In this document: in pieces, positions 45,701-64,000 of the stretch
Position numbering within the stretch: position 1 is the stretch's first letter
Layout: the number at the start of each line of letters is the position of its first letter
NCBI GenBank assembly: GCA_038049695.1
Contig: CP142455.1
Span: 31,657,501-31,721,500, forward strand
Origin: Cinnamomum chago
Lineage: Eukaryota; Streptophyta; Magnoliopsida; Laurales; Lauraceae
DNA: 64,000 bases
Direction of reading: 5' to 3'
Translations under genes and position numbers: made by a program
Notes under the pieces: model-generated
What the model was told of the DNA's origin: nothing
Seen by the model: the letters and a program-made list of their open reading frames with translations, nothing else
The model's database searches: none

Positions 45701-46976
45701 CTGCTCCATAACCGAAAAATCCATGTACACAAGTGATATTTATAAAGAAAAAAATCTATATTATATAAAATATATATTTATATACCACAAATACACTCAA
45801 AAGTATTTCTTTCTTACAAACATTAGATCACAATTTTGATTCATGTACCATGTGATATATATTTGGTACAAGTATCTGGAAGTGATTCCCTAGAGTAAGG
45901 TCCAGGCGAAGTATTTTAAATAAATCAGGTTAGGTAGGGGACCTAAGTATTTAAGTTAAACAGGGTTCGGTCCATGGACCTAATTTGACCTAATTTAAAA
46001 TAAAATGGCATTTGTTTTCTAAAAGCAAATAAGCAATTTTTTTCTTTCTTTTAAAAAACTGCCTTCACTTCGCCTTACCTTTTTTGCAAAAGGCCAGGTT
46101 AGAAACATAGAAGCATTTTCTTTAATTCCACCCCTAACCATCACCAACATTGATTTTGAAGGGAAATATCCACATGAAATAGTGCTCAAAAAAGACATGA
46201 ATTTATCGTGGTAAATAAAATAGAACACAATACTCAATACAGACATGAACTATCATGGTTTTCAATCCCTTACACAAACAGCAAAGAGGCTGGTATTTAT
46301 GTGTGTAATCCACTTTTCCAATGACCCTTCTGAAGTATTCATACTGTAGGGGGTTAGGGCCACCTTTAATCGATCCATTGCCACACACCAACCCACTTTA
46401 AATTGGCATTATCCTAATTTCACACTGCTCCAGACTTTGTTTGCCGTTGGATTTTGTCACAACAAATTTGCAGGTGTATAGACAATTAAACTTTGAGGAC
46501 TTGATACTAAGGGCTAGGATCATTCAATCTGCCTAATATCTCATAATTCCCTCCTATGGCCATTCAATCAGCCTAATATCTCATAGTCCCCCTTAAATAT
46601 CATCAGGGTCAGTCTCAAATGCAAATAAATGCTAACATGCTCGTGAGAGATTTGATCAATCACATTATCACCTGGGTGAGGGAAGGCGGATATATCAAGT
46701 AAAAGGTGGGTCCCACAACAGTAAGAGAAAGAAGCAGCATAGAATCTCTTTAGAGAGATGCTACTGACCGAGGCATCCGAGGGCGACACCGAGCAAGAGC
46801 AGGACGATGGTGTGAGGAACACGTGTGCCGCAGAGATGCTTCGAGGCAGCCCCAAGCGTCAGAGATACACCCACGAATATCACTGCGTCTACAGGATCCG
46901 CAGAAGAAGAAGATGAAGAAGAAAGACTACTGCTTTCCAGTAGAGCTCGAGAGCAGCTACACTCTTCTGTGTTCAT
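30699..46976 (-). CDS. SOS1: SOS1/NHX7 plasma-membrane Na+/H+ antiporter, exons 1-9 (5' part)
   Basis: Nine exons join in frame (46976-46769, 41509-41459, 41348-41257, 33573-33496, 33421-33264, 33002-32901, 32814-32697, 30940-30888, 30764-30699; 926 nt, 308 codons plus two bases). The start MNTEEC is followed by a serine-rich stretch, then the first membrane segment VDAVIFVGVSLTLG. Later landmarks are NPDLLLYVFLPALIFEGSF, GPGVLISTF, the antiporter signature SATDPVAVVALLKELGASKK, GESMMNDG, FIFNDKMIGIALTLAVSY and VARTAFKGD. This is the N-terminal half of the cation/proton antiporter domain. SOS1 exports Na+ at the plasma membrane and is activated by the SOS2-SOS3 kinase complex in salt stress. 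No stop interrupts the joined frame. The rest of the membrane domain and the long cytosolic tail (the family is about 1100-1150 residues) are not in the window, so the copy is either split by a very long intron 9 or truncated. Confidence 0.92.
30888..30940 (-). CDS. SOS1: SOS1 exon 8
   Basis: 53 bp between TTGCAG and GTAAGTG. It reads AQDAAGVSGILTVMTVA, the counterpart of AQEWAGASGVLTVMTLG. Intron 7 carries the L1 fragment and the GC-ended hAT. Confidence 0.92.
31121..31848. mobile_element. Non-autonomous hAT element with GC-rich subterminal repeats, 728 bp
   Basis: Terminal inverted repeats CATGGATCAAAATA and CAAGGATGAAAATA (right end reversed) differ at two positions. Identical 8-bp target duplications TTCCTAAG flank it (31113-31120, 31849-31856). 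Inside both ends the motif CCGCTACG/GCGGCCGCTAC is repeated about ten times, while the middle is AT-rich and non-coding. hAT transposases bind such subterminal repeats. It lies in SOS1 intron 7. Confidence 0.92.
32285..32601 (-). mobile_element. 5'-truncated L1 LINE insertion
   Basis: Read on the minus strand it ends in a short A-run (T8 at 32286-32293) and encodes the usual L1 C-terminal IWIIWKERNARCFKG. A 13-bp target duplication AACATAGCAGTAT flanks it (32272-32284, 32602-32614). It sits in SOS1 intron 7, in the same orientation as the gene. Confidence 0.9.
32697..32814 (-). CDS. SOS1: SOS1 exon 7
   Basis: 118 bp between AATCAG and GTAAGA. It reads VAVGLAFGVASLLWLRFIFN then DKMIGIALTLAVSYCAYFT. 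It ends in phase 0. Confidence 0.94.
32901..33002 (-). CDS. SOS1: SOS1 exon 6
   Basis: 102 bp between TTTCAG and GTATGT. It reads GISIVVYQLFYQMVLGRSF then SIGNLIKFLIQNSLGA. The usual TAIVV after NDG is ISIVV here. Confidence 0.9.
33264..33421 (-). CDS. SOS1: SOS1 exon 5 (antiporter signature)
   Basis: 158 bp between CTGCAG and GTACAC. It codes FTFPYNWDWKTSLLLGGLLS, ATDPVAVVALLKELGASKK, then LSTLIEGESMMNDG. The ATDPV aspartate belongs to the ion-binding core of the CPA1 family. Confidence 0.95.
33496..33573 (-). CDS. SOS1: SOS1 exon 4
   Basis: 78 bp between ATCCAG and GTATGC, phase 0 on both sides: RCMVQMLLLAGPGVLISTF then CIGTAVK. Intron 3 before it is about 7.7 kb and full of transposon remnants. 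A broken duplicate lies at 33707-33773. Confidence 0.94.
33508..33925. repeat. ~200-bp tandem duplication spanning SOS1 exon 4
   Basis: The block GTCCCAATGCAAAA..GTTGATATTAGAACACC...CCCCATTTAAAAGTTCATTAA occurs at 33508-33706 and again at 33707-33925 with about 10% differences and one small T-rich insertion. It includes most of exon 4 and the intron beyond its acceptor. Confidence 0.92.
33707..33773 (-). pseudogene. Broken duplicate of SOS1 exon 4
   Basis: The copy keeps the acceptor side and reads RCMV, a TAG stop, then MLLLAGPGVLISTFCIG. It stops short of the splice donor because the duplication border falls within the exon. In transcription order it lies before the true exon 4. If used, it would end the protein after about 121 residues. 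Confidence 0.88.
33926..34529. other. SOS1 intron 3, unassigned part
   Basis: AT-rich DNA without a recognisable frame or terminal repeats. It may be decayed copia sequence that continues the fossil to its right. Confidence 0.4.
34530..35345 (-). pseudogene. Copia pol fossil (end of integrase region and start of RT)
   Basis: Minus-strand frames give DLDLPIAPHKGKRSCVTYHG, EALGKNKTWEIVDLHEA, YFDPFSPVAKLNLVRFIH and VKIAFLHGDLHEEVYME, in the order of copia pol. Stops and frameshifts abound. With the fossil at 37412-39000 it probably forms one old copia element in SOS1 intron 3, split by the TIR element between them. Confidence 0.82.
35771..37002 (+). mobile_element. TIR element with hAT (BED-finger) transposase remnant, ~1.23 kb
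   Basis: Ends TAAGAAGCACGGACAC and, inverted, TAAGAAGCACAGACATGG match closely, and GGACACG-type words recur near both ends. About 36667-36789 reads MSSIPGSSSHPSDEEDINK then PMWKYVTKFEQLNEEVGNIT, resembling the N-terminus of BED-type hAT transposases; the zinc-binding residues themselves are missing. The middle is a long T-rich tract with CTGCTG repeats. No clear target duplication was found. It interrupts the copia fossil. Confidence 0.7.
37412..39000 (-). pseudogene. Copia protease and integrase fossil
   Basis: On the minus strand SWVFDSCTANHMTSM (protease with DSG changed to DSC), VLHVPQSTHNLVSLSAL (pre-integrase region), FKFAFKSS-like residues, KIQVLHSDNGES and NGVAERKNRHLLEVARG (integrase core with D and E), then INQMPS, IFGCVCFIHIPKHQQDKLD and KAVKCVFVGDAEHG follow in copia order. 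A MITE (38275-38575) lies inside. The frame is broken at many points. Confidence 0.87.
38275..38575. mobile_element. Tourist-like MITE, 301 bp
   Basis: Left end GGGCATATTTCTTTAGCAGA and inverted right end CGGCCCATTTCTTTAGCAAA match over about 17 positions. Both flanks carry TAA (38272-38274, 38576-38578), the usual 3-bp target of PIF/Harbinger elements. Nothing is coded. It sits in the copia integrase fossil. Confidence 0.82.
39001..41256. other. SOS1 intron 3, upstream part
   Basis: AT-rich intron DNA. GCTCTAGTACCAAGTT at 39749-39764 and GGCTCTAATATCATG at 40341-40355 resemble the reverse complement of a tRNA-Met primer site (GCTCTGATACCA). They may mark 5' ends of old minus-strand copia elements, but no LTR pair could be drawn. 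Several A-rich runs follow (39830-39970, 40540-40580). Confidence 0.45.
41257..41348 (-). CDS. SOS1: SOS1 exon 3
   Basis: 92 bp between TTGCAG and GTTCAT. It reads WANINPDLLLYVFLPALIFE then GSFAMDYHQIK, a strongly conserved SOS1 segment. It ends in phase 0. Confidence 0.94.
41459..41509 (-). CDS. SOS1: SOS1 exon 2
   Basis: 51 bp between ACAG and GTAAGT. With the last base of exon 1 it reads EYNTKIGLGKVGVGVRL, matching the short loop after the second helix in SOS1 (E.GTKH.LGK.G.GIR.W). Confidence 0.9.
41510..43849. other. SOS1 intron 1, distal part
   Basis: No exon recognised. It contains the hairpin MITE listed separately, a short direct repeat (AGTCTGTATCCCTTGGTGT twice, about 42853-42901) and a TA tract at 43664-43684. 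Confidence 0.5.
42381..42531. mobile_element. Snap-back (foldback) MITE, ~150 bp
   Basis: Arms 42382-42444 and 42469-42531 are reverse complements with only 3 mismatches in 63 bases, around a 24-nt loop. Smaller palindromes (GAGATGCTCCTATGAGAGCA) lie within each arm. It is embedded in TA repeats on both sides, consistent with insertion at TA. Transcribed as part of the SOS1 intron, it would form a long near-perfect hairpin. Confidence 0.88.
43850..44755 (+). pseudogene. RTE-clade LINE, RT C-terminal half
   Basis: Plus-strand frames give GLHRGSTLSPLAF, MDELTTQIQEEVPWC (with shifts), NDIVLVDESRD, AEMKMLRWICG, LRWFRHVQRRP-like residues and a final GRPKRKCMEVV, in RTE order. The element ends in (TGA)n, GATGATGATGATGATGATGATG at 44726-44747. 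It is 5'-truncated and lies antisense to SOS1 in intron 1. Confidence 0.82.
44756..46735. other. SOS1 intron 1, proximal part
   Basis: No exon or complete mobile element was recognised. A short duplicated block (ATTCAATC.GCCTAATATCTCAT, about 46523-46548 and 46562-46587) lies near the right end. The right border is where the segmental duplication begins. Confidence 0.5.
46769..46976 (-). CDS. SOS1: SOS1 exon 1 (coding part)
   Basis: ATG at 46976-46974. Residues 1-69 include SSSSSSSADPVDAVIFVGVS and GTRVPHTIVLLLLGVALG. Donor is CTCG|GTCAGT, phase 1. Intron 1 is about 5.3 kb. A second copy of this exon is at 60044-60242. Confidence 0.93.
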
Positions 46977-47222
46977 CAGGATCCTGAAATCAAAACCCTA
47001 AATTCAAAGAAGAAGAGAAGAAGGATGATAAAAAAGAGGCTTGCTTGCTTTCCTTCCTTCCTTCCTTCCTTATTTGCGAGGAACATAAGAGCATGCATTT
47101 GATTTGTAGACGTCCATGTCTCGCTTTCACATCCCTTTTTGTGAACAGGAAGCAGTTAGCGTGTAAAGAAAGGGTTGCAGAGGCGGTCACCATCGTGGGG
47201 CCCGTTTATTAGTGGAGGAAAC

Positions 47223-47990
47223 TCTAGTCGTTTAACCGTATGGTCGTTTTTTTTTTTTTTTTTATTGTTCTCTTATCTTTGTAAGGGCATTTTTTTCGTG
47301 ACACTTTTTCATGGAAAAGTGAACGATTTTTTTATGAAAATTTTATTTTTTCAATATTTGGTGCGGAATAATTTTATAAAAATATTTTTTTATCTTATTA
47401 GCATTTTCCTTCATAATTGTGGAAATGAGTTTCTCATGGGGGTATGGAAAATGGATTTTCTTGAAAAACTTCTCCCTTTTTTCCTCACTCTTGTCCATTT
47501 CAACCTAAAAATCGTATAACTCTTTCATTTTTTATTTTTTATATAAATTATTATTTAATGTTAAATAAATAATATATATGTCATATTATTTTTCTTCAAA
47601 AAATTATATCACCAAATAAGAAATTTTGATTTTCTATAAGGAATCCACAGCTGCACCAAACAACATCTGCACCAATTCAATGAGGAAACTCTTTTTACAC
47701 TGAACATAAATTTCTAAATTCTACAAAAATCATTTTTCGAGGTTTTTATTTTTATGGAATTTGCTGACGTGGCAATTTCCTCTTTCTGCGGAAAGGGTGT
47801 GTACACAAACATGCCCTAATAGTGGTTCCAATCCTTTGGACTTTGAACTGGACTAATCCATCCAATGACCTAAGTGGTAGCACAAGTAGACTCCGAAATA
47901 GAGGAATGGGGTCAATACCAAGACCTCTAATTTTGAAAGAGGGAGGAACCACGGTCCTGACCACTCGGCCAACTCCTTGAAATTTTTTCA
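47223..47990. mobile_element. Insertion specific to the left copy, with SINE-like segment
   Basis: About 770 bp between GTGGGGCCCGTTTATTAGTG and AAATGGTGCAACTTGGGATG is absent from the right copy at about 60470-60496. At 47820-47975 the minus strand reads GGAGTTGGCCGAGTGGTCAGG, a good pol III A box of Leu/Ser tRNA type, followed by a poor B box (GGTATTGACCCC). A tRNA-derived SINE is likely there. The remainder is AT-rich. No target duplication was resolved. Confidence 0.5.
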
Positions 47991-49724
47991 TATGACAGGT
48001 AAATGGTGCAACTTGGGATGGGCTGAGCCTAACCCGAGGACAGAAACTTTTCAAAAGCATCAAGTCCAAAATGAACTAGTCGATATAGGCAAAGACCTTT
48101 TATTTACTTGGACATGGGAACAGGAGAATCGAAATTTCTCTCCAAACACTGCTCGTGTACTGTGACAGAGGCACCAATCATCACTGGCCACACTTGATAC
48201 ACGGCAAAGAAGTTTCCACGGCTCAAAATGAGTGCACGCTTGTCCCAATAGTCCAATTCAATCAAATTGGTGCCAAACCTTAAGACCCACGACAATCCAA
48301 GGGGGGTCGGTCCTATTTTATGCTCCACTCGAAAGGATCAGAACATGGGCCCCACCATGTGTTCCAAAGCATCGGTGCACCCATTTTCAACATCATACTG
48401 AGCCAGTTAAAACAACCTAGCAAAATAAGTAGGCACTTTATTACGAAAATAGAAATAGTAATATTTATTGTTCTGTCATGCATTTTGTTAATAGAATAAC
48501 AGTTCAAGTGATAGGTTAGCATTACATAATCAACTTGATCAGTGACTTTTATTTGGAAGTTCTTATGATATGTTAATGCATTTTGATAAACTACAAAACT
48601 ATCATGGTCTTCACTTTTGTGTGCCTTGATGATTATCCCTATAGAATAACAGATAACAGTAAGCAATACATTAATGTCTTGTCTACTATAACATCTATTT
48701 TCCAATATAAGTAGTATATATTCATTAGATTTTCATGAATACACTAATTAGAGATTTTATCTGTAGGTATTTCTACAAATCCCTACAATGTTCATAATTG
48801 AGGTCAGAGATCCCATACTTAGATTGGTTAATGTTGCGACCAAATAGTGCCAAACCATGAGATAAGGATATCGTATGGCTTTTAGGCTTCTTTGAAGAGC
48901 TAATTTTGAATTACTTTAAGTTCCAATCGAAAAAACTAATTAATGTATGATCTAGTCGAGTAAGATTTAAAATATAAGCATAAAATTATAAAGGATTTTG
49001 TTCTAGAAAGAACTGTTATCACGAAGTCAACCTGGAAATTTTGGGCCCCAACAGGGGATGGTAGTGGATTCGAGGGGAGGGAAAGATCTATGTGTGACCA
49101 CATCAAGTATCAAATTTGACCCAAATCTCATACCCCTAAATCCTTCATCTGCGGCTCACGAGTTTAATAACTTCATATTAAAAAAAAATTAACCCTTCAT
49201 CCAACGGTCCAGTCCATTTGGATGGGTGTCAAACCTTGAGATTAGTGTCTATTAAGGGGGGTGCATGTTTGTGCATGGTTTGGATTGATAGGTGGGGTCC
49301 ACTAATAGTTCTTACGGAAGCATGGTGAGAACTAATACTCACTTTAATATTTCCCAAGAAAACATATTCATATCATGATTTTGACCTACCTTTTTCAATC
49401 GTAATGATAAATTGCAATGTAGCCTAGCAATTTTGCAAGGTTGATGCCTTGCAATGTACCATAATCCTCATTTGAAGGTAATAATGAGAAAAAGGATGTT
49501 TCTTTTTCAATTAGATTAAATGATAGAAAGTTGAGACAAACCCTCTCCAGAAATACAAAGAGAGAAAACCCTAATAAATATTAACATATCGATATATAAT
49601 AAAATAAGTTGCAAGCATGATGATTAAGTTGAGATTTGGATGTCCCATTTGAAACTAAAATATAAATAACGGACACCACCAACAACAAATATAAAACTGA
49701 AGTTATGAAATTCATTAAACAGCT
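47991..49724. other. Upstream DNA shared by both duplication copies
   Basis: No gene recognised. The stretch aligns to about 60490-62340 of the right copy apart from the MITE there. It carries no frame conserved between the copies, which argues that it is non-coding. Confidence 0.6.
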
Positions 49725-49742
49725 ATATATCGAAAAATGCTT

Positions 49743-49920
49743 CTTTTTTTTTTTTTGCTATCGGAGGGTTCCCAACCCTTTGGGTTGGACTAATCCCTCC
49801 AGACCCAGAGGGAAGCCGGGTAAACTCCCTTGTAGCCCCAGTGTGGTAGTGCAGTTTCGAACCTACAACCTCCGGGTGCAAACCATAGTCCTAGGCCAAC
49901 TGAACTACCCCTTGGGGTTG
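49743..49920 (-). mobile_element. tRNA-derived SINE, 178 bp
   Basis: On the minus strand it starts CAACCCCAAGGGGTAGTTCA and has A box TAGTTCAGTTGG and B box GGTTCGAAACTG about 40 bp apart, then a tRNA-unrelated body and a poly(A) tail (T-run 49744-49755). An 18-bp target duplication ATATATCGAAAAATGCTT lies at 49725-49742 and 49921-49938. The right duplication copy (around 62352-62375) has an empty site. Confidence 0.93.
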
Positions 49921-50616
49921 ATATATCGAAAAATGCTTATTAAACTGCTAGTCCTTGATGAGGTTGATATCAGCTCTAGTTTGAGTATATTTGTGCATTT
50001 CTATAGTTGCAGTCATTACAAATTTATTGCTTTAAAAGGGCATTATTTTGACAATGCTCACGGATGATGCTTATTGGACGATTTATATGGCTTGACCCCG
50101 TCAAAGCTGACCCGACCCGGCCCATTGTCTAGTAATATATATAAAAATTATACATGGGCAATGTTCCTGTTCATAACCTCTCGAGGTAGCTTGAGCCTTG
50201 ATGGGGCTCATTTGGGATTGCACTGATCATAGGACCAAGGGGAATGGAAAGAGCTATCTTGAATGGGCTTTGATATTAAGTTCGGAGTCAATATCATACC
50301 TCTAACCCTTTCATCTGTGGCCCACAAGTTTAACAACTTTATATTAAAAAAAAAAGACCGATCAAACATCCTAATTTATTTGGATTGGTGAAAACTCAAC
50401 TGGTCCAGTGTAATTCAAGGGCTTGTGTGTACGATTTGAATTGGTGATGGGTGTGCCCCAACATACTACGAGATGTATATATATATATTAGCCATGTCTA
50501 CTTATCAAGTTGTGACTTATAGTGCTTAACATTTTAGGTTAGTTTTAAAAGGCAGAGTGGCCAAAAAAAAAAAAAAAAAGTTGTAGCCACCTAACATGCG
50601 CACCCCAATCATTTTG

Positions 50617-51594
50617 GGCCAGTTTGGTAAATTTACTTTTAACATGAAGTGAGGTGAAATCTCAAATTAAAAGATAAAAAAAGAGGAGGGGTCAAATCAC
50701 AAAGTGATTTTTTTTTGTCATTTTAGTGAAATGAAAATATAACTTTTTGACTTTTTATTTTAAGATAAGATGGTTTTTTTTGTCATTTAATGACATGTAA
50801 AAGTAACATTTTGAGTTTTTTTGGTAAAATGTAGAGGTATTTTTTGAAAGATTGTTGCTAATGCCATGTTTTTTGAAAGATGATTTCTAATGCCACACCG
50901 CAAACTTCTCTGAGCACACCCCTTAAGTTTAAGACCAATATGGATATCACTCATATTTTCGTACTCCACCCAATTTCTCTCTACACTCACCCACCCTAGC
51001 CCAACCACCACCGCCCCCTCCTGCAGCACCGCCAAAGGGGGATAGCGACATGGGAGAGAGGAAGTGGGAGGTGGAGGTGGCGGCGGCGGCGGCGGGCGAA
51101 AGAGAGAGGGAGAGGGAGAGGGAGAGAGGGCGAGCAGGGAGAGGGAGAGAGGGGGAGGAGGCGAGCAAGGGAGAGGGAGAGTTGGTGGCGAGCTGGGAGA
51201 GAGTGAGAAGGGAGGAGGGAGAGGGAGTGAGACAGGGAGAAAGAGAAAGAGAGGGAGGGGGCGGCAGTGGAGGCGGGCAAGGAGAGGGAGAGAGGGTGGC
51301 GGGCAGGGGGGACAGGGATAGGGAGAGGAGGGAAAAGGGGGAGTGAACCAATAAGTGGAGTTTAGAGCAGTTTTGGTATTTTGGGAAGAATGAGGTGTGT
51401 AGGGAAAGATTTTGGGAATCTTTTGACTTATTTGAGGTGTGTAGAGGGAATGGGTGTGCTCTGAGAAATCTTGGGTGTGGCATTAGCAACTATCTCTTTG
51501 AAATATGATACTTTCGGATTTGACCCATTTTATTTTACTATCTTTTGAAATAATCATTCACCCTACTTCACTAGTGAAGTGAGTTAACAAACCC
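50617..51594. mobile_element. MITE-like outer element (TIR GGGCCAGTTTGGTAAA)
   Basis: The left end GGGCCAGTTTGGTAAATTTA and the inverted right end GGGTTTGTTAACTCACTTC are similar, and the left end matches the MITE ends at 60978-61271 and the start at about 63222. The GA-rich TIR element lies inside it. Right border and target duplication are uncertain. Confidence 0.5.
50868..51505. mobile_element. TIR element with GA-rich, GC-rich core
   Basis: The left end (GAAAGATGATTTCTAATGCCA and on to CTCTGAGCACACCCCTT) and the inverted right end (AAAGAGATAGTTGCTAATGCCA through TCTCAGAGCACACCCATT) form terminal inverted repeats of about 55 bp. The core 51020-51345 is a GC-rich (GGNGGN)/(GAGAGG) tract utterly unlike its surroundings. 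It can be read as long open frames on both strands only because of its simple composition. It could be a Pack-MULE-like element carrying a host 5'UTR or exon. Only the left end remains in the other duplication copy (63830-63900). Confidence 0.6.
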
Positions 51595-53076
51595 ACGAAT
51601 TAAGAGCTCATTTGAGTCACACCAAAAACAATATAAGTAGACAAATATCTTGACTTTACTACTTATGTATCCTAAATGCAAACACTCCTTTTAAGTTGGC
51701 ATACAAAATATAGGGCATAAATCAGCAAATAGACCACATGGCAACAATGTTCATGTCTTCTTAAAAATATTAGCCATGATGGCCCCTGCTTATCCCTAAG
51801 CCTTCCTCCCTATTGGGCACTCCTAAGTTGCAGCTTATATTATCGTAAGCTAAAATCGTCGGTAAAATCATCTCAATCATAAACTGCCTCAAATCATCGC
51901 CTCTAGAATCAGAATAAATCCATTCAGAACTGGATTCTCCAGTTCCATCATGCCAAAAATAGAGATAGTTAACTTTGATTTGTGAGACAGCTTTTGATAA
52001 TATAAGCTATAGCTTAGGAGAGCCTTGCTCATATATATAAATATATATATATACACATATTTTACTAAAATCCTACTCTTGGTCATTTTCTGCATTTGGC
52101 AAGTCTTACTTGAGGCCATTCTCTCTGCACTCTAATTCAGTCTATGGACAGTGAGTCTCCTCTTGTTGCCTACGCTTGAAGAGCCGATCTTTCTCAGTAT
52201 GTAGTTGTTCTCTTTTTCTCTTTTTTTTTTTTTTTTTCCCTTATCGAGCATTCCAACGGTGTCTTTTTGTCTAAAGATTAGTTGGACGTTGCTTCAAAGC
52301 CTGATTCTTTACCTCAATTTATCTTTGCGCTGGACGAAAAAAAATTAAAAATTAAATCCTACTCTTGTTGGTTTCTAAATGAGCATCTGACCAAAACAGG
52401 TGTAGCCATCCATTCCAGCGACAACTCCAAAGTACACACAATGATTCATGCCTACAGCTCGTAAGGACACCCACTAACTCAAGAAAGTAAATGACATGTC
52501 ATGGCTATTGTTAGCATATGCACTTGAAATCTCAAAAAATTAATATTAGAGAAGCATGCCAAAACCAAACATTCTTGGAGATTTCAAATCTCATGCTTAG
52601 AGAAAACCTTCATGGTAAATTAATAAGTTACTATGCGTTAGAGATTAAATTGAACACTCATGTGATCTTATTTTCCATTGTATTATCTTTGATTAGGCAA
52701 GGAAGCACAGACTTTTATTAGTGGGGACGTGAAATATGACGTGGTTCTTGGCACAGCTGAGGGGAAGAAAGGATGAATAAAGGGAAGGAGAGAGCTATTG
52801 TAGCTGCTTAAAATAATAAAAATAGGGGCTATGCATTAACCTTTGAGAAACAGAGGAAATGGAGGGGATAGAAGAGAGAAACGAGCAGAGAGTGATGAAA
52901 ATTTTCTGGATACCCTCCTTGTGAGGTGCTATCCACTTTTATAATTACTATATGTTGTAATCAGGGATTTTACATACTACTAGCGTACAATAACCACTGA
53001 TATTTTGCTAACAGGAAATCATCCTACTCATCATCTAGTCACCAAAGATTATAGTAATATTACAACATTTGTATGT
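51595..53076. other. Unassigned DNA
   Basis: AT-rich stretch with a TA tract (52028-52056) and a T-run (52221-52238). The frame at 52282-52464 (60 codons, MDVASKPDSLPQFIFALDEK...) looks gene-like in composition but has no family I recognise and no splice context I can support. Confidence 0.4.
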
Positions 53077-53438
53077 TAGGGATGTAAACGGGTCAGTTCC
53101 GGTTCCGGGTCCACCGTTTGTGGAACTGGATCTTGATCCGGAACCATTTTGGAACCGGTGTCATGACTCCGGAACCGGAACCGGAACCATATATGAGACG
53201 GGTCCGGATCCGAGTCTAGGTAGATAATGATATTAAAAAATATGATTTTTAAAAGAAATTTTTAAAAATTGAGGTATAATATGTCGGATCTTAGGTCAAC
53301 GGGTCTGAACCAAAGTTGAACCGGACCCGGACCTAGACTCATTTACTTATTATTGGGGCCTAAATAAGACCCAGATCCGATTTTTATGGGTCGGAACCTC
53401 CGAGTAACTGGAGAATCAGAGACCCATTTACATCCCTA
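53077..53438. mobile_element. hAT-type MITE, 362 bp
   Basis: Terminal inverted repeats TAGGGATGTAAACGGGTC and TAGGGATGTAAATGGGTC (right end reversed) differ at one base. Identical 8-bp target duplications TTGTATGT flank it (53069-53076, 53439-53446). The interior is rich in CCGGAACC/GGTTCCGG words. It inserted into the RNase H end of the copia fossil. A relative begins at about 63907. Confidence 0.93.
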
Positions 53439-54251
53439 TTGTATGTACATATGTGATAGTCGACTTCTACATATTTTGTCCTTTCATGAAACACTGAATT
53501 AGTAGCAATCTGTATTGCACTATTATTGTTAGCATGTAATGGAGAAGGTGCGTGAAGGAAAACACCAAAATCAGTCAATAATCTCAGAAGCCATAAAATC
53601 TCACTGGTGGCAGAAGACATTGTAGGATACTCCGCTTCACATTAGAAACTGTCTTTTGTTTTTTTACTCTACTACAAAATGAGAGACAATCGAAGGAACA
53701 TACAACACCCTATAGTGGATCGCCTAGTGTCTGGACCGCCTGTCCAGTCTGCATCAACATAAGCATTAAGACGAAGGGGAGAATGGGAATAGTAAAAAAG
53801 ACCTTTGTAGATTATTCCTCGAAGATATCGAATGATACGATGTATAGCATTAAGATGAGGACAGCCAGTGGCGGACCCATATATACTCATATGGGTGCAG
53901 GTGCACCCGGTGAATTTTGAATTTCCTGTTAAATGGATATGGGTCAGACAGCCATGCCCCACTTAAAAATATATCTTGCACCCCATTTAAATCCAGCCCA
54001 TAGATAAAATGCACCCATGACCTGATGAGTGATGACCCACCCTTATCAAATGTAAAAACCCTCATTTGAGTCATTTCCCCCAAAACCCATCGATCTCAAA
54101 CCCTTTCCCCTCTCAAACCCTTCTTCCTCTCCACACTACATCGCACCCCAAAGGCAAAACCCATCTATTGAAAACCCTTGTATCTCTGATCTCTCCAACC
54201 GTTCTCCCACTCCACATCGCACCCAGCTCCAGGTCCATCCAGCAGGCAGCA

Positions 54252-54305
54252 ATGGCGACGATGACGACCGGGGTCGTGCAGAAATTCGAAGACATCCAAG
54301 AAGAG
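54252..54305 (+). CDS. Possible first exon inside the hAT (MATMTTGVVQKFEDIQEE)
   Basis: A C/T-rich leader like a plant 5'UTR (54064-54250) precedes ATGGCGACGATGACGACC, and 18 codons later comes a donor-like GAAGAG|GTATCC. Codon use here is GC-rich, unlike the AT-rich transposase. I do not recognise the protein. It could be a 5' exon of the transposase gene or a captured host exon. A second exon-like block (about 56312-56394, ACAG...GTGCAG|GTATTC) is weaker. Confidence 0.4.
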
Positions 54306-56027
54306 GTATCCTTGATTCCTTTCCTTTCCACTTCTCCTCTTTCTATTATTCCTCTATTCAGATGATGTTCTTCTTCTTTGCAACCTATTACAAAAGAAAG
54401 CCTATCTGTTGTTTGTTCCTCTGTTTTTCCCCTTATTGGTTTTTTCTCCAAATCTAACAATGAAATCTCTGAAGAGAGTGCGGATCCTTGTTTTTGGGAC
54501 CACTTGGGGCCTTCACCCATACATTTACTTGATCTATATGAGTTTCTCCTACAAATGGATTAACTGTTTGAATGTTTGGTGAAAAACATGATAATCAATT
54601 TACATAAGACTCTGTTAATAATATTTTTCTTATGAAACGGACCATCCAACGGTGGAAAAGCCTCCGATTGACCTAAATTTTGAGGATACCAGATATATTT
54701 AGAGGGTGTTATTTTGAAATGTTCGAAGTTCAGTGGTTGGGTGCCACTGTGGTTCACCCCTTTTAACTCTGGCTTTCTTGAGGTTAAAGAATTTTGAGCA
54801 TACCTATACTTATTATTATTATTTTTCTTCTGTCTTCACATGAAGTTGCATCTCTTGGCTCTTGCTAGGTAACATTGCCAGTGGCAAAGAGATGAATTTG
54901 GAAACTAGTTGCAGTTTTTAGGCTATTAGATGTATATAATGGATGCTTGACATAGCTCTGTATTCAATTATGGATTAAGCATACTGATGTGGCTATGCTT
55001 GAACAATTGTTAGTAGTCATAGGGAGTGTTTTAAATCCATGACTTCTAGCCATGCAGAAATTGAATCAAAACTCAAAAGCCTCGGGACTTGGGGTTAAAA
55101 TGATTTTGGGCTGTGTTTCTGTGCAGTGTGGTGAAAAGAATAATATGAGATTACTTTTGCAGGGAGAGGTGCAATTCTCTTAATCCAATCAAACAATTTA
55201 GTACTTTGCATTCTTGTAAAACACTTTATAATAAAAAGACCAAAACATATTTAAGAGTGGTTGATCTTGATCAATTTAGATAGATATCAATGTGAGTTTT
55301 GTTTGAAGAAAAAAAAATCCAGAAAATGGTCAGAAACTCTAGTAAAAGAAAATGTTAGCTGTGATGATTTTTTTCATTAGCAATTAAAATAAATATATGA
55401 TTGGACCTTTACTGCTTGATTTTAGATAAACAATACTAGTATGCTTGTTCACTTACAATCATATTACTTGTCTTTGAAGTTAGACCTGTAAATGTTATTT
55501 GGAAATAGTTAGAACAACATTCCACAAGTCGACTAGTTATTACTTATGACTTGGTAATATGTATAATATGCAGTTTGTTCATCTTTTGTACATTGGGGAT
55601 ACGCTCTCTAAGCCTATCTATCCTTCCATTCTTATTTCTTAATATATACTTTCACCTTCCAACAGGAGGAAAAAAAAAAAAAAACAGAGCAAAACTTGCA
55701 GCCAATGGACAATCCCCGGTCCAACAAATTAACCTGTTAGCATGGAAGTGAATTTATGTCCATAGCATGGAAGTGAATTTCAAATTTTGTTTTGTTTGAC
55801 AGCCACTTCATAATATGGTGCTTATAACATGATAACCATGTTAGAGAATAAATGTTCTCTTTCATTTGTTGGTATAAGAAATATGTTGTTTTACTAGGGA
55901 CTTGCAATTTGAGAGGCATATCTGGATGGTTAAATGAAATTACATTATGTACCCATTTGATTGGCCATGTTGTTGTTAGTCATTACTCAAATCAAGCCAA
56001 CATCTTTTTTTTTTTGTTCTTATCAAG

Positions 56028-56063
<36 letters not shown>

Positions 56064-56766
56064 AAATTGGTTTTCTCTCAAGTCATTCATTATCATAATA
56101 TTAACTGTACTTGTGTGAAGCTCTTACCAAGGATAGATCTATCTCTTAACATATCTCCGTATTTCATTGTTCTCTTCATGATATCTGACCCATCCCCACT
56201 TAATCATCTAACTCCATATCTAATTTTATTGCAATAGACTCTAATAAAAAATGTGATTAGAAATAAAAAAGCTTTTTATTTACATGGATTTATTTTTTCA
56301 TTATACACAGGAGAGCTATCTAGCTATTGATTGGAGGTGCATCATCTAATAGTTCTGCAACTTTGGTGGGCCCTCTCTCTGGCAGCGTAGTGCAGGTATT
56401 CCCCCTCTCTCTTGATTTTTTTTTTTAATTTGTATATCATAGTCAAATTAAATAAATTGTTGATTTGATTTAGAGCTTTATGCTTTTAACTATATACTGG
56501 CAATTTGATGTACAAATGTTCATATTTCTATGATACTTTTTAATTTGATGGATGTGGTTTACATATGTGTAGTCATGATTGATTTGTGTCTTAAGTATTT
56601 TCATATACCCATGTGTTTGTGTCCCAACCTTTCCAATAATCAATTAAGTTAATGTGCTCGAACTAAGTTCTGATCCAATCAAGTTATGCGTTTCTACTAA
56701 GTTATGTGTTTTTAGGCAGGCGTTGATTTTGATGAAATTTTCTATATCTTTGACTTTGAATCAGCT
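54306..56766. other. Non-coding interior of the hAT
   Basis: About 2.4 kb with no supported frame. It holds a CT microsatellite (56030-56056), T-runs, and AT-rich DNA compatible with one or more introns between the leader and the transposase exon. Confidence 0.5.
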
Positions 56767-59123
56767 ATGGAAAATTATTTCAAAAGAAAATCAACTCCTA
56801 GTCTACCATGTCCGAATTTAGAGAATGATAACAATGATCAAATGCCATCAGCTTCGAAGAAAAGTCGTGTAGAAGTTAACTTGGCAGATCTTCCTGCAGA
56901 TCCTGGGTTACGAAATCCAATCTTGAGTTTTCATCCTATGGATCGAGATCAAATCCGAAGAGCGTATCTACAAAAGGGTCCTTGTCAGCCTCGTGATCAT
57001 AAATTTCCTTTTACGGAGTCTGCACAAGATAAGAGGCGATTTAATCCGGCTTGGTTTAAGGATTATGGTAGTTGGTTGGAATACAGCATAAAAAAAGATG
57101 CTGCATTTTGCTTATGTTGTTATCTTTTTGGAGAGCATGCACGTCATGATGCCTTTATAGCTCAAGGATTCAAAAATTGGAGGAAAAAAGAAAGAATTAG
57201 AGATCATGTGGGAGGCCCGAAGAGTGCTCACAATCAAGCATATGAGAAGTGCCAAAATTTATTAAATCAAAAGCAACACATTGAGACAATTGTTGTCAAG
57301 CAATCGGATCAAGCTCGGATTGAGTATCGAATCCGCTTAAAGGCAACGCTTGATGCCATTCGCTTTCTTCTACGCCAAGGGTTGCCTTTTCGTGGTCATG
57401 ATGAATCTGAGCATTCAAATAACATGGGTAACTTCCTTGAGCTTTTGTAAGTAATTGGCAATCAAAATGAAGCTACTAAGAGAGTCATTTTGGAAAATGC
57501 TCCTGAAAATTTAAAGCTTACCTCGCCTAAGATTCAGAAAGATATTGTAAATGCGGCTTCTATGGAGACCACTCAGGCTATCATTTCTGAACTTGGAGAT
57601 GCACCATTTGCTCTTTTGGTGGATGAATCTCGTGACATCTCTATGAAAGAGCAAATGGCCGTTGTTTTACGCTATGTGGATGAGCGGGGTTGTGTGATTG
57701 AACGCTTTTTGCTAGTAGAACATGTCACAAACACTACTGCTCAATCGCTTAAAGCGGCAATCGATGCGATATTTTCCAGGCATGGATTGAGCATAACAAG
57801 TTTGCGCGGGCAAGGTTATGATGGAGCTAGTAATATGCGGGGTCATCTTAATGGTCTCAAAACACTCATTCAAAATGAGAATCCTACTGCATTTTACGTT
57901 CATTGTTTTGCACATCAGCTTCAATTGGCACTCATTGCTGTTGCAAAAAAACATGTACCAATTGCCATGTTCTTCGAATCGGTTTGCTATACGTTGAATG
58001 TCGTTGGAGGCTCTTGCAAACGCCATGACATGCTCCAAAATATACAAGCTGCTAAAGTTGTTGATGCGCTCAATACTGGTGAACTTGAAAGTGGACAAGG
58101 TTTGAATCAAAAGACTAGTCTCAAACGGCCGGGAGAGACACGATGGGGCTCGCATTAGGTACATTGATTAACTTGATCCACATGTTCTCCTCTGTGATTG
58201 ATGTGCTTGAGATTATTGTAAAAGATGATACAAATGAAAATGTGGGTAGTGCGGCTCACTCATTGCTTCAATTGGAATATTTTTATTTCGCATTTAAAAT
58301 GCATTTAATGACAAATATTTTGGGGATCACGAATGTCTTATCAAAGGCATTGCAGCGAAAAGATCAAGATATTGTCAATGCCATGAAAATGGTAAGAATA
58401 TCAAAACAAAAATTGCAAATGATGAGAGACGATGGGTGGGATTCTCTCCTCTCTGAAGTTCATTTATTTTGTGATAAATATGAAATCCCCATTCCGAATA
58501 TGGATGATTTGTTTGTTGATCGAAAGCGATCACGACGCAAAGCTGAAGTGACAAATCTACATTTTTACCGTGTTGAAATATTTTATACTACCATTGACAT
58601 GCAACTTAAAGAGCTCAACGATCGCTTCAATGAGGCGACCACCGAGTTGCTTCTTTGTGTGGCATGCTTCAATCCAAGTGATTCATTCTCTGCCTTCAAC
58701 AAGGAAAAACTTATCCGCCTTTCTCAATTCTATCCAGATGATTTTTCAGACTCAAAACGATTGATACTTGATAATGAACTGGAGATTTACATTATCGACA
58801 TGCGAACCAATAGCAAGTTCTTAGAAGTGAAAGGAATTAGTGGCCTTGCTCAGAAGATGGTTGAAACAAAAAAGAACATCCTATATCCTTCGGTTTTCTT
58901 CCTTTTGAGATTGGCGCTAACTCTACCAATTGCTACTGCTACTGTTGAGAGAGTGTTTTCTGCTATGAAAATTGTGAAGAGTCGACTACGCAATCGAATG
59001 GAAGATGAGTGGATGAATGATTATTTACTTTTATATATTGAAAGAGACATTTTTAATAGCATCGATGATGAGACAATCATGCAACGCTTTCAAAACATGA
59101 AGAACCGTCGAGGGCAATTGTAA
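56767..59123 (+). pseudogene. hAT transposase (TTF zinc finger, DUF4371, dimerisation domain)
   Basis: The start MENYFKRKSTPSLPC leads into a TTF-type zinc-finger region (WLEYSIKKDAAFCLCCYLFG; HVGGPKSAHN). Then follow a DUF4371-like catalytic core (LVDESRDISMKEQMAVVLRY; GQGYDGASNMRGHLNGLK; CFAHQLQLALIAVAKKH) and the C-terminal hAT dimerisation motif (TVERVFSAMKIVKSRLRNRM; LLLYIERDIFN). The total of about 785 codons is normal for the ZMYM1-like group. Two lesions break it: a TAA at 57448-57450 after GNFLELL, and loss of one base near 58154-58158 (after RWGSH), which moves the rest to another frame (58143-59123). The protein would cut and paste the element. Confidence 0.95.
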
Positions 59124-59734
59124 AAGCTTTATTGTATAGTTGATATATGACTTTTGATGAGAAAATGTAGTTGATACACTTGAATATTTTGTAATCATTT
59201 AAATGTAATACATTTTCTCTTTTGTCATTATTAATGTGAAGAAAGTATCACAAAATAATATTTTTGGACTTTTTCAATTGCCATTGTTTTGCACCCCTCA
59301 AACGAAAATCCTGGGTCCGCCACTGAGGACAGCTACGACCAGATACAAATTTACTGACTATTTGTACAACATGAGCAATGTTTGGTCTGGTCATAATAAG
59401 ATAATAATAAGATGGATAAGATTCCCATCCAAATGGCAATACATAGTGGCATTACGAAGTGGAGACCCTTCAGAGCGACTATATTTACCATTCAATTCCA
59501 ACGGAGTTTCAGCAGTCCGTTTATCAGTCAAATGGGCCATGGTGATTATGTCCTCAGTATATTTCTTTTGATGAAGAAATATGCCTACTGAGGCTCTAGA
59601 AAATTGAAGCCCAAGAAAGTACGATAGAGGGCCCAAGTCTTTCATATGAAACATCTTCATTAGATAGTTGTTTAGAGCATTCATCTCTTTTTCATTATTC
59701 CCTATGATGATGATATCATCAACATACAGTAGCC

Positions 59735-60010
59735 AGGGCGGAACCAGAAATTTTGAAATTGGGGGGAATAAAATTAAAGATTTTAAAAATAAAATGCACA
59801 AGAAAAAGGAAATATTTAAGTTGTGCTCAATGTTCTTTCAATGAGAAGGTAGCTATTTGGTACTGAGATAACTATGATTGAAATAGAATTTTCTTTAATC
59901 ATAGATGATTTGTGACAATGTTTTGAAGTAATCTAAACTTAAAACCTTGGGTACGCATAGGGGATTTATATAATGGACAATAAAGATTTCATATCATTTA
60001 ATTCAAATAT
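59735..60010. mobile_element. Truncated hAT-like end between copia fossil and duplication border
   Basis: CAGGGCGGAACCAGAAATTTTG at 59735 resembles hAT termini of the CAGTGGCGGACCC type and abruptly replaces copia RT sequence. No matching right end is seen before the segmental-duplication border at 60011. Confidence 0.5.
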
Positions 60011-60043
60011 AGCATAGAATCTCTTTAGAGAGATGCAACTGAC

Positions 60044-60242
60044 CGAGGCATCCGAGGGCGACACCGAGCAGGAGCAGGACAATGGTGTGAGGAACACGTG
60101 TGCCGCAGAGATGCTTCGAGGCAGCCCCAAGCGTCAGAGATACACCCACGAATATCACTGCGTCTACAGGATCCGCAGAAGAAGAAGAAAGACTGCTGCT
60201 TTCCATTAGAGCATGAGAGCATCTACACTCCTCTGTGTTCAT
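60044..60242 (-). pseudogene. SOS1: Duplicate SOS1 exon 1
   Basis: ATG at 60242-60240. It reads MNTEECRCSHALMESSSLSS then SSADPVDAVIFVGVSLTLG and GTRVPHTIVLLLLGVALG, and ends CTCG|GTCAGT in the same phase as the main gene. It lacks three of the seven serines in the poly-serine run and has three other substitutions near the N-terminus. Only 33 bp of intron 1 follow, then unrelated DNA, so no exon 2 is available unless it splices across about 18.5 kb to the main copy. Unspliced, it reads on for about a dozen residues to a stop at 60003. Confidence 0.88.
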
Positions 60243-60977
60243 CAAGATCCTGAAATCAAAACCCTAAATTCAAAGAAGAAGAGAAGAAGGATAATAAAAG
60301 AGAGGCTTTATTTCCTTCCATCCTTCCTTCGTTATTTGCGAGGAACATAAGAGCATGCATTTGATCTGTAGACGTCCATGTCTCGCTTTCACATCCTTTT
60401 TTGTGAACAGGAAGCAGTTAGCGTGTAAAGAAAGGTTTGTAGAGATGGGCCCCATCGTTTATAAGTGGGCGCAACCCTTTGTCTTATTTCGTATGCTTGG
60501 CAAATGTTGCAACTTGGGATGGGTCAAGCCTAACCCCAGGACAAAAACTTCTCAAGTCCAAAATGAACTAGGCAGTATCGGCATAGACCTTCTGATGACT
60601 ACTTAGACACACCATTAATTTCTTTTTAATGATGATTAACTATTCAAATGGATCAAAACGCGGGCCCCACCTTGTGTTCCAAAAGCACCTTGTGAGCCAG
60701 TTAAAACTACCTAGCAAAATATGTAGGCGTTTTATTACGAAAATAGAAATAGTAATATTTAGTGCTTTATTATGAAAATAGAAATAGTAATATTTATTGT
60801 TTTGTCATGCATTTTGTTAATAGAAAAACAGTTCAAGTGATAGGTTAGCATTACATAATCAACTTGATCAGTGACTTTTGCATATTTGGAAGTTCTTATG
60901 ATATGTCAATTCATTTTGATAAACTACAAAACTATTCTGGTCTTCACTTTCGTGTGCCTATACTTGATGATTATCCT

Positions 60978-61271
60978 GGGCCCGTTTGATAATTTTACTA
61001 ATATAGTCAAGTCAAGTTAAGTCAAGTTAAACATCCTATCAAAAGCACTTTTTACCAAAATTCCCTCCATCTTTTTCAAAAAAAGTCAAAAAGCAACTAC
61101 ATTTACTCACTAAAAGACAAAAAAAACTTCATTTCCCCATACAAAAAGTCAAAAATTTTCCATCCCAAACAACTAAAAACAAAATATCATCATAACTCAC
61201 TTATATTTTATTCATTCTTTTCATTTCACTTTACTCCACTTTATTTTAATAGTAAATTACCAAACGGGCCC
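60978..61271. mobile_element. TIR MITE (GGGCCCGTTTGGTAA), ~294 bp
   Basis: Ends GGGCCCGTTTGATAATTTTACT and, inverted, GGGCCCGTTTGGTAATTTACT match over about 20 bases. The left duplication copy has the empty site (GATGATTATCCCTATAGAATAACAG, near 48628), proving insertion after duplication. The target duplication is unclear. It is non-coding. Confidence 0.9.
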
Positions 61272-62502
61272 TAATGGAATGACAGATAACAGTAAGCAAT
61301 ACATTAATATGTGTTTTCTAATAAAACATCTATTTTCCAATATAAGTAGTATATATTGATTAGATTGTCATGAATACACTAATTAGAGATTTTATATGTA
61401 GGTATTTATACAAATCCCTACAATGTTCATAATTGAGGTCAGAGATCCCATACTTGGATTAATTAATGTTGCAACCAAATAGTGCCAAAATGAGATAACG
61501 ATGTCATACGGCTTTTAGGCTTCTTTGATGAGCTAATTCTGAATTACTTTAAGTGCCAATAGAAAAACTAATTAATATATGATTTAGTTGAGTAAGATTT
61601 AAAATATAATCATAAAATTATAAAGGACTTTGTTCTGGTAAGAATTGTTCTCATGGGGTCACTGTGAAAACTTTCTATGGGGTTCATCCCCAACAAGAGA
61701 TGGGACTTGATGGGAGGGAAAGATGTATGTGCGACCATCTCAAGTAGCTAAATTTAACCCCAATCCCATACCCCTAAATCCTTCATCCATGGCTCATGAG
61801 TTTAATAACTTCATATTAAAAAAAAGTAATCCTCCATCCAACGGTCTAGTCCATTGGGATGGGTGTCAAACCTCGAGATTAGTGCCTATCAAGGGAGGTC
61901 CATGTTTGTGCGCAGTTTGGATTGGTTGGTAGGTGGACCCACCAATAGTTTTCATGGAAGCATGGTGAGAACTAGTTCTCACTTGAATATTTCTCAATTA
62001 GAAATACTAAAAACATATTCATATCATGATTTTGACCTACTTTTTTCAATCGTAATGATGAAGCGCAATGTAGCTTTGTTAATGCCTTGCAATGTACCAT
62101 AATCCTCACTTGAAGGTAATAATGAGATAAAGGATGTTTCTTTCTCAATTAAATGATAGAATGTGGAGACAAACCCTCTCCAGAAATATAAAGAGAGAAA
62201 ACCCTAATAAATATTAACATATGGATATATAATAAAATAAGTTGCAAGCATGATGATTGAGTTGAGATTTGGATCTCCCATTTGAAACTAAAATATAAAT
62301 AATGTACACCACCAACAACAAATATAAAGCTAGTGTCATGAAATCCATTCAACAGCTAGATAACGAAGAAACTAAACTGCTAGTCCTTGATGAGGTTGAT
62401 ATCAGCTCTATTTTGAGTATATTTGTGCATTTCTATTGTCGTAGTCATTACAAATTTATTGCTTTAAAAGGGCATTATTTCAATAATGCTCACGGACAAT
62501 AG

Positions 62503-62735
62503 CAGACCCAGGATTTTTATTTGGGTGGTGCTAAACCGTTGCTTGACTTTACTAACTTTTTTCATATGAATAATACCAAAAGAGAAAATTTATTACAATT
62601 AAATTGACACAGCCCAAATCTTTTGCCCAATTGACCGGTATTCCCACTACCTCTACCAAATTTAAGTGGTCATCAATTTATAATCATCAAAGCAACCTAA
62701 AATAATATTTCCTTTAAATAAATTCAGAGCTTCCC
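62503..62735. mobile_element. Truncated hAT-like insertion
   Basis: AGCAGACCCAGGATTTTTATT resembles the hAT terminus at 59302-59325 (reversed) and starts where the right copy departs from the left copy (CTCACGGA, about 50058). Homology resumes at CCCGGCCCGTTGTCTAG. The other terminus is not evident. Confidence 0.5.
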
Positions 62736-63332
62736 CAGCCCGGCCCGTTGTCTAGTAATATATGTATATATATGTATATTATACATGGGCAATGATCCTG
62801 AGCTTAATGGGGCTCATTTGGGATTCCACTGTTCATGGGACCAAGGGGAATGGAAAGAGCTATCTTGAATGGGCCCAAATATCAACTTTGGAGTCAATAT
62901 CATATCTCTAATTCAATCATTTGTGGCCCACAAGTTTAACAACTTTATATTAAAAAAATTAAGACTGATCCAACAACTCAATTTATTTGGATTGGTGAAA
63001 ACTCAACCGGTCCAGTGTAATTCAAGGGCCTGTGTGCACGGTTTGAATTGGTGATAGGTGTGCCCCAATATACTACCTGAGAGATGAATATATTAGCCAT
63101 GTCTACTTATCAAGTTGTAACTTATAGTGCTTTAACATTTTAAGTTACGTTTAAAAAGGCAGAGTGGCCAAAAAAAGAAAAAAGTTGTAGCCACCTAACA
63201 AGCACACACCAATCATTTTGGGCGAGTTTGGTAAATTTACTATTAACATGAAGTGAGGTGAAATCTCAAATTAAAAGATAAAAAAAAAAGGGGTCAAATC
63301 ACAGAAGTTTTTTTTTTTTTTTTGTCATTTAG

Positions 63333-63668
63333 TTCACATTTGGCAACCAAATGTGAGCGGAAATGATTTTCAGTTTTCTTAAAGTTGTGGTAAAGCTATG
63401 TTTGACAATTATAAATTTCTGAGGATTTGGACAAATAAAAATCTTCATTTATTAAGATTTTTATATCCAACCACCTCCCATAAGATTTGAAAATCTTCAC
63501 TTAAGTGGATGTGCACACCGAACCCTTCTTTTTTTAACTTTATGCATCGACACACAACAATATCAATGTGAAATCCTCAAATATACAAATCCCCAGCGAT
63601 GAATCCTTGTTCCAGTGATAATGAAAAATCATCAGATCTATGGATTCCTCGCCTGTTACCAAACATGC
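63333..63668. mobile_element. Short TIR insertion, 336 bp
   Basis: The right duplication copy is interrupted between GTCATT and GTGAAATGA, which are joined in the left copy (near 50720). The ends CACATTTGGCAAC and, inverted, GCATGTTTGGTAAC are similar, and TAG is repeated on both sides (63330-63332, 63669-63671). Nothing is coded. Confidence 0.75.
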
Positions 63669-63904
63669 TAGTGAAATGAGAATGTAACTTTTTGACTTTT
63701 TAGATAAGATGATTTTTTGTCATTTAATGACATGTAAAAGTAACGTTTTGACTTTTGAAAGTAACTTTTTGAGGTTTTTTGGTAAAATGTAGAGGTATTT
63801 TTTGAAAGATAGAAACTAATGCCATATTTTTTGAAAGATAGTTGCTAATGCCACACCCCAATCTTCTCTGAGCACACCCCTTAAGTTTAAGACCAATATA
63901 CCTT

Positions 63905-64000
63905 GGGTTGTAAATTGGTCGGTTCCGGTTCGGGTCCTTGGTAGACCCGGAGCCGGAAAGGAGAAGGTGGAACTGGATCCGGATACGGAACCGTTTCGGA
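63905..64000. mobile_element. Left end of a MITE related to 53077-53438
   Basis: TTGGGTTGTAAATTGGTCGG followed by TTCCGGTTCGGGTCC and GGATCCGGATACGGAACC mirrors the start and interior of the MITE at 53077. It runs off the window. Confidence 0.65.

Follow-up and report, generated by a model that had tools for sequence, protein, structure and literature searches.

The 64,000-nucleotide window analysed here (contig C5 of the Cinnamomum chago genome, positions 31,657,501-31,721,500) carries the beginning of a SOS1-type (SALT OVERLY SENSITIVE 1) Na+/H+ antiporter gene twice. Copy A is attached to the remaining exons of the gene, and copy B lies upstream of it in the same orientation. The arrangement is best read as a partial tandem duplication, real and old. 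Our favoured reading, which we regard as roughly an even call, is that copy B serves as a transcribed alternative promoter and first exon that would splice to exon 2 of the main gene. The duplicated parts, in window coordinates, are as follows.

46736..53453, minus strand: copy A, comprising, from the main SOS1-type gene, 33 bp of intron 1, exon 1, the 5' untranslated region (5' UTR) with the proximal promoter side, and DNA further upstream (self-blastn; end placed by eye)
60011..64000 within the window, minus strand: copy B, with insertions, running to ~71543 outside the window (blastn; end placed by eye)
A 46736-46768 and B 60011-60043, minus strand: shared 33 bp of intron 1, marking the inner break-point of the duplication (alignment)
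46769..46976, minus strand: coding part of exon 1 of A, 208 nt, with the donor gtcagt at 46768-46763
60044..60242, minus strand: coding part of exon 1 of B, 199 nt, in frame, with the donor gtcagt and the MNTEECRCSH variant (alignment and translation)
A 46977..47196 and B 60243-60458, minus strand: 5' UTR/proximal upstream block, with 15 differences in 216 aligned bases

Self-comparison of the window by blastn revealed two adjacent, colinear copies on the same strand with defined break-points, starting at 46736 (A) and 60011 (B), in blocks that are 77-94% identical. When the right flank was added to obtain the extent of copy B, the blastn blocks reached A 53074 and B 71534, and alignment of the outermost stretch of A (53075-53453) by eye extended the colinearity to A 53453 and B ~71543, past the window end. 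A first-pass annotation of this DNA had proposed a tandem segmental duplication of SOS1 exon 1 with its upstream region, at least 4 kb long and 13.3 kb apart, to be checked by just such a comparison. The duplication was borne out, and the 4 kb proved to be a minimum. The two copies are offset by 13,275 at exon 1 and by ~12.3-12.6 kb across most of the upstream part, the distance shifting along the segment because of indels. The annotation's 33 bp of intron 1 in the right copy was exact, and its MNTEECRCSH variant was read in the translation of B.

Across the aligned blocks, which total 4,063 base pairs, A and B differ at 420 positions; E-values go as low as 0, so that their similarity is far beyond chance. 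The noncoding blocks alone hold 411 differences in 3,831 (~11%), corresponding to Kimura two-parameter (K2P) distances of 0.07-0.16. Because divergence was counted within blastn blocks only, these counts are lower bounds. At substitution rates usual for plants, the duplication would date back somewhere between about ten and a few tens of millions of years. When exon 1 with the proximal upstream region was searched against the whole genome (1.06 Gb, 14 contigs), two places only were found, at 100% and 92% identity; since this DNA search skips very common words, absence elsewhere is not strictly proven. Each copy also has blocks that the other lacks, which may be insertions in one copy or deletions in the other. 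Copy A has 786 bp at 47197-47982 against 25 bp in B, 203 bp at 49738-49940 with a direct repeat on both sides (by eye), and a repeat of ~360 bp that ends near 53438 and is flanked by TTGTATGT. Copy B has ~292 bp at 60977-61268, 338 bp at 63331-63668 and ~400 bp at 63900-64302. The outer portions without alignment amount to ~0.8 kb in copy A and 5.6 kb in copy B.

Copy B contains what a first exon requires, namely a start codon, an open frame, a donor and a matching phase. In both copies exon 1 ends in CTCG followed by gtcagt, in phase 1, and as exon 2 starts with AATACAAC, the junction reads GCL-EYNTK with either exon 1. The N-terminus of B is MNTEECRCSH, compared with MNTEECSCSR in A. Altogether the exons differ by S7R, R10H, L13M, a serine run that is 9 bp shorter in B with the frame kept (three serines fewer), and four silent codons. 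Copy B itself has no exon 2 and keeps only the 33 bp of intron 1. When its exon 1 is joined to exons 2-22, an open frame of 961 aa with both SOS1 domains results. The intron needed from B to exon 2 would be 18,534 bp, shorter than two introns already present in the gene. Upstream, B has a putative promoter of its own, resembling A in sequence over the proximal 216 aligned bases. The predicted use of B as an alternative first exon is thus structurally sound. The first-pass annotation had raised the same idea, and its structural half stood (donor, phase, 961-aa frame, and an 18.5-kb intron within the range of the gene), while the splicing itself is kept here as a prediction.

The exons downstream of copy A that lie within the window are given below.

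41459..41509, minus strand: exon 2 of the main gene, the acceptor needed by either exon 1 (gene model)
41257..41348, minus strand: exon 3 of the main gene (gene model)
33496..33573, minus strand: exon 4 of the main gene (gene model)

The main gene is intact. Its model has 22 coding exons and 2,895 nt with a single stop at the end, encoding a protein of 964 aa. All 21 introns end in AG, and the donors are 20 GT and one GC (after exon 12). The gene spans window positions 46976 to -74098 (C5:31583403-31704476), ~121 kb, with the last exon at -74098..-74031, and its largest introns are 20.9 and 32.1 kb (maximum 32,085). Exon 1 aligns with the SOS1 chains of Arabidopsis and rice, and so does the almost complete model along its length. 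The two top protein matches were those of Persea americana and Cinnamomum (93%), followed by one at 70%, which places the plant within or near the Lauraceae; against the Persea protein P0001, 927 of 964 aligned columns are identical (96%). Na_H_Exchanger transmembrane and cNMP-binding domains were found in a domain scan, run on the model carrying exon 1 of B. The sequence hence identifies the gene as a plant SOS1-type antiporter and not the animal Ras exchange factor, and the label SOS1 in the first-pass annotation was right in the plant sense. As a separate observation, the plant SOS1 proteins of Ancistrocladus, Dionaea and Asimina are labelled 'Son of sevenless 1', a confusion with that exchange factor. 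Exon 4 is tandemly duplicated as well (33505-33926), and its upstream copy at ~33707-33781 is dead, with a stop codon and a lost donor.

Between the end of A (53453) and the start of B (60011) lie ~1.1 kb of repeat fragments plus a hAT element.

53454..59732, minus strand: spacer part 1, a Copia-type polyprotein fragment of ~811 bp net, interrupted by the hAT element (RVT_2, Pfam)
53866..59325, plus strand: hAT-type DNA transposon of 5,460 bp (DUF4371, Dimer_Tnp_hAT)
59733..60010, no strand assigned: spacer part 2, a dispersed repeat of 278 bp, cut off at the duplication junction (genome-wide matches)

The hAT element has perfect 13-bp terminal inverted repeats (CAGTGGCGGACCC/GGGTCCGCCACTG), an 8-bp target duplication (AGGACAGC) and interrupted open frames; it was inserted into the spacer later. 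In the Copia fragment, the reverse-transcriptase part was matched by Pfam, and the RNase H-like part was recognised by eye only, without a Pfam match. No counterpart of this fragment was found where copy B ends. The 278-bp repeat beside B gave 30 genome-wide matches, itself included. One relative on contig C4, the sole one read, extends past the point where B begins, and the repeat thus appears to be cut at the join. None of the 16 other listed matches, the window itself aside, carried the Copia fragment and the 278-bp repeat together. By analogy with maize p2/p1, the junction agrees with illegitimate end-joining in which foreign pieces were captured. The material between the copies may nevertheless be filler or a later insertion, the latter being equally possible for the Copia piece.

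We propose that the head of the Lauraceae SOS1-type gene was duplicated in tandem as a unit of ~6.7 kb, as now seen in A, and that the break ends would have been joined illegitimately. The inner break would lie 33 bp into intron 1 and the outer break ~6.5 kb upstream of the start codon. Copy A would have stayed attached to exons 2-22, and B would have retained the promoter side and exon 1, with a donor that looks functional, without exon 2. Copy B is most likely still transcribed at some level. Its exon 1 would splice to exon 2, passing over A, a first exon for which no acceptor is proven. The outcome would be a nearly identical protein (S7R, R10H, L13M and three serines fewer) from a second promoter.

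Constraint on B was assessed by comparing exon 1 with noncoding windows, which overlap one another, and by a neutral simulation. Over the final 133 bases of the coding part of exon 1, A and B show 2 differences, both silent, while none of 2,442 noncoding windows of 133 bases had two or fewer (minimum 3, mean 14.1). The ratio of nonsynonymous to synonymous divergence (dN/dS) between the two exons was 0.27, from only 8 differences. For the simulation, the ancestor was A minus the 9-bp serine stretch, and two rates were used, with 40,000 histories each. The frame, the donor and the core protein were all kept in 0.15% of runs, or 1.2% at the lower rate. Constraint on B is hence supported indirectly.

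Several observations weigh against a functional B, and some of them favour the view that it is a dead relic, that is, a partial tandem duplicate that is silent or without a usable product and intact by chance. We consider this quite possible, though we would not call it probable. In the neutral runs the open frame survived in 27-31% and the donor in 90-93%; because they are so often kept, frame and donor alone are weak evidence. The full 199-base exon, with 8 differences, is a weaker test than its core, as 5 of 1,979 noncoding windows reach this value, and for the 133-base core the Poisson probability is 0.027 if A is frozen. Taken as a whole, the proximal block shows 24 differences in 448 bases; this is about half the noncoding divergence, a level that constraint on A alone would produce. 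Both polarisable amino-acid changes (R10H and L13M) fall on B when compared with A, Persea and Cinnamomum. Transcripts of B would also have to cross the transposon-rich spacer, and an acceptor-like TTTCAG lies ~10 nt before the start codon in both copies, so that a B transcript might splice into exon 1 of A and meet an early stop. Two protein searches gave no B-type product. With exon 1 of B plus exons 2-5 as query, none of the best 120 of 970 matches was above 86% identity, and the orphan-exon search yielded 0 of 13 candidates. These negatives are weak, because candidates were only of similar length to the query and the database was clustered at 90%; both searches could easily miss such a product, and a full-length one would hide in the cluster of A. 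What argues against a relic is the exon 1 core protein, unchanged in B and in only 0.7-4.0% of neutral runs.

Low divergence could also arise without function if exon 1 of B had recently been overwritten by A, or the reverse, through gene conversion. The most similar stretch, 46736-46901 (3 differences in 166), does take in the shared intron, the differences jump in the N-terminal codons (6 in 66), and A, B, Persea and Cinnamomum share the diagnostic sites in mixed combinations. The Persea protein has S7, R10 and L13 as in A with the short serine run of B. The Cinnamomum protein has R7 as in B, with R10, L13 and the long serine run as in A, and its 5' leader fits one frame of B (score 119) better than any frame of A (at best 94). 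An attempt to assign the two proteins to A or B consequently gave no clean result, the diagnostic sites being mixed. However, the low-divergence stretch overlaps to a large extent with the membrane-segment codons, whose protein sequence is identical in A, B, Persea and Cinnamomum, which is what purifying selection predicts, and we regard gene conversion as improbable. An assembly artefact, either haplotype duplication or a misjoin at 60010, deserves hardly any credence. The canonical SOS1 on contig C2 does have a last-exon repeat that is 99.7-99.97% identical and ~93 kb apart, which makes assembly duplication conceivable for this genome in general. Between A and B, by contrast, divergence is ~11% and some blocks are present in only one of the two, far beyond what alleles show, so that an assembly echo or two alleles is very unlikely; the single copy or misjoin that the first-pass annotation had named as grounds for dismissal is accordingly unlikely. 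Copy B was also considered as the head of another complete SOS1 gene. This was ruled out, since a 51-aa conserved exon-5 query matches C5 and C2 only, and for the same reason B is not the head of such a gene wrongly joined here.

If copy B is indeed a transcribed alternative first exon, it would join a known type of change, for a duplicated start of a gene is already on record. In human PGM1, a duplicated first exon (1-1 and 1-2) is described, each with its own 5' UTR and with common downstream exons; the two are 51% identical in protein and their isoforms are known (PMC7101342). One gene body with two paralogous first exons is structurally matched here, from sequence alone, whereas in our case the two exons encode nearly the same protein. 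Variable first exons are likewise described for the vertebrate UGT1 cluster (PMC3325998); here only two exons are present, no change in protein function is expected, and promoter choice is predicted only. Should transcripts be found, B could be classed with PGM1 or UGT1 as a duplicated alternative first exon. In plants, tandem duplications altering regulatory sequence are described for maize p2/p1, with illegitimate end-joining and composite filler at the join (PMC2686159). The maize p1/p2 and p2/p1 chimera resembles our locus as a plant tandem duplication that changes regulatory sequence. It differs in that the p2/p1 filler is 50 bp (PMC2686159) as against ~1.1 kb of transposon fragments with a nested hAT here, and in that only the gene head is duplicated here. 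Our literature searches found no title about first-exon duplication for SOS1 in Lauraceae, and no title on SOS1 for tandem duplication with an alternative first exon in plants. If true, the case would be a clean natural plant example of a second promoter and first exon gained by partial tandem duplication; as the protein is little changed, any effect would fall on expression alone. The diagnostic variants S7R, R10H, L13M and the serine run allow an easy test in existing RNA data.

Like the plasma-membrane Na+/H+ antiporters AtSOS1 and OsSOS1, the protein has Na_H_Exchanger and cNMP-binding domains and homology along its length, but its end corresponds to residue 972 of the 1146-aa Arabidopsis chain 7y3e. 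It stops after VILINLDHLH at a genomic stop and has no C-terminal autoinhibitory tail. The Persea protein P0001 stops at the same place; the Cinnamomum record diverges after ETRAR and is no longer (926 aa). When the tails of P0003 and P0004 were compared with a 234-kb stretch of C5, only two weak matches appeared, one with E 0.24 and one with E 0.013 that falls in low-complexity DNA upstream. A blastn comparison downstream of the stop gave a match covering only the 34 bp before it, and the whole-genome search placed tail exons on C2 only. A second, longer, canonical-type SOS1 lies on that contig. Because it has no tail, the C5 gene is a SOS1-type paralog and not the canonical SOS1, making it the second SOS1 paralog of the genome. 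In Arabidopsis, loss of the last 148 residues (delta-998) is described as fully activating SOS1 (PMC10372031). By analogy, the paralog found here, which lacks the tail naturally and is 96% identical to that of Persea, may be free of autoinhibition. A further idea, which we think unlikely, is that such a tail-less Lauraceae paralog, like the hyperactive Arabidopsis truncation, would be driven from two paralogous promoters and first exons that go back to the old tandem duplication, with selection maintaining B as a separate (e.g. tissue- or stress-specific) start.

The last exons of the canonical SOS1 occur on C2 twice, at 42916267-42920420 and 43009498-43013652. Over the 2-3.4 kb compared, their near-identity points to a recent segmental or assembly duplication. 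Both SOS1 genes are very long: compared with the ~121 kb on C5, the C2 gene (42916267-43123645) would measure ~114 kb or 207 kb, depending on whether the nearer or the farther last-exon copy is taken. Transposon content was observed in the introns of the C5 gene.

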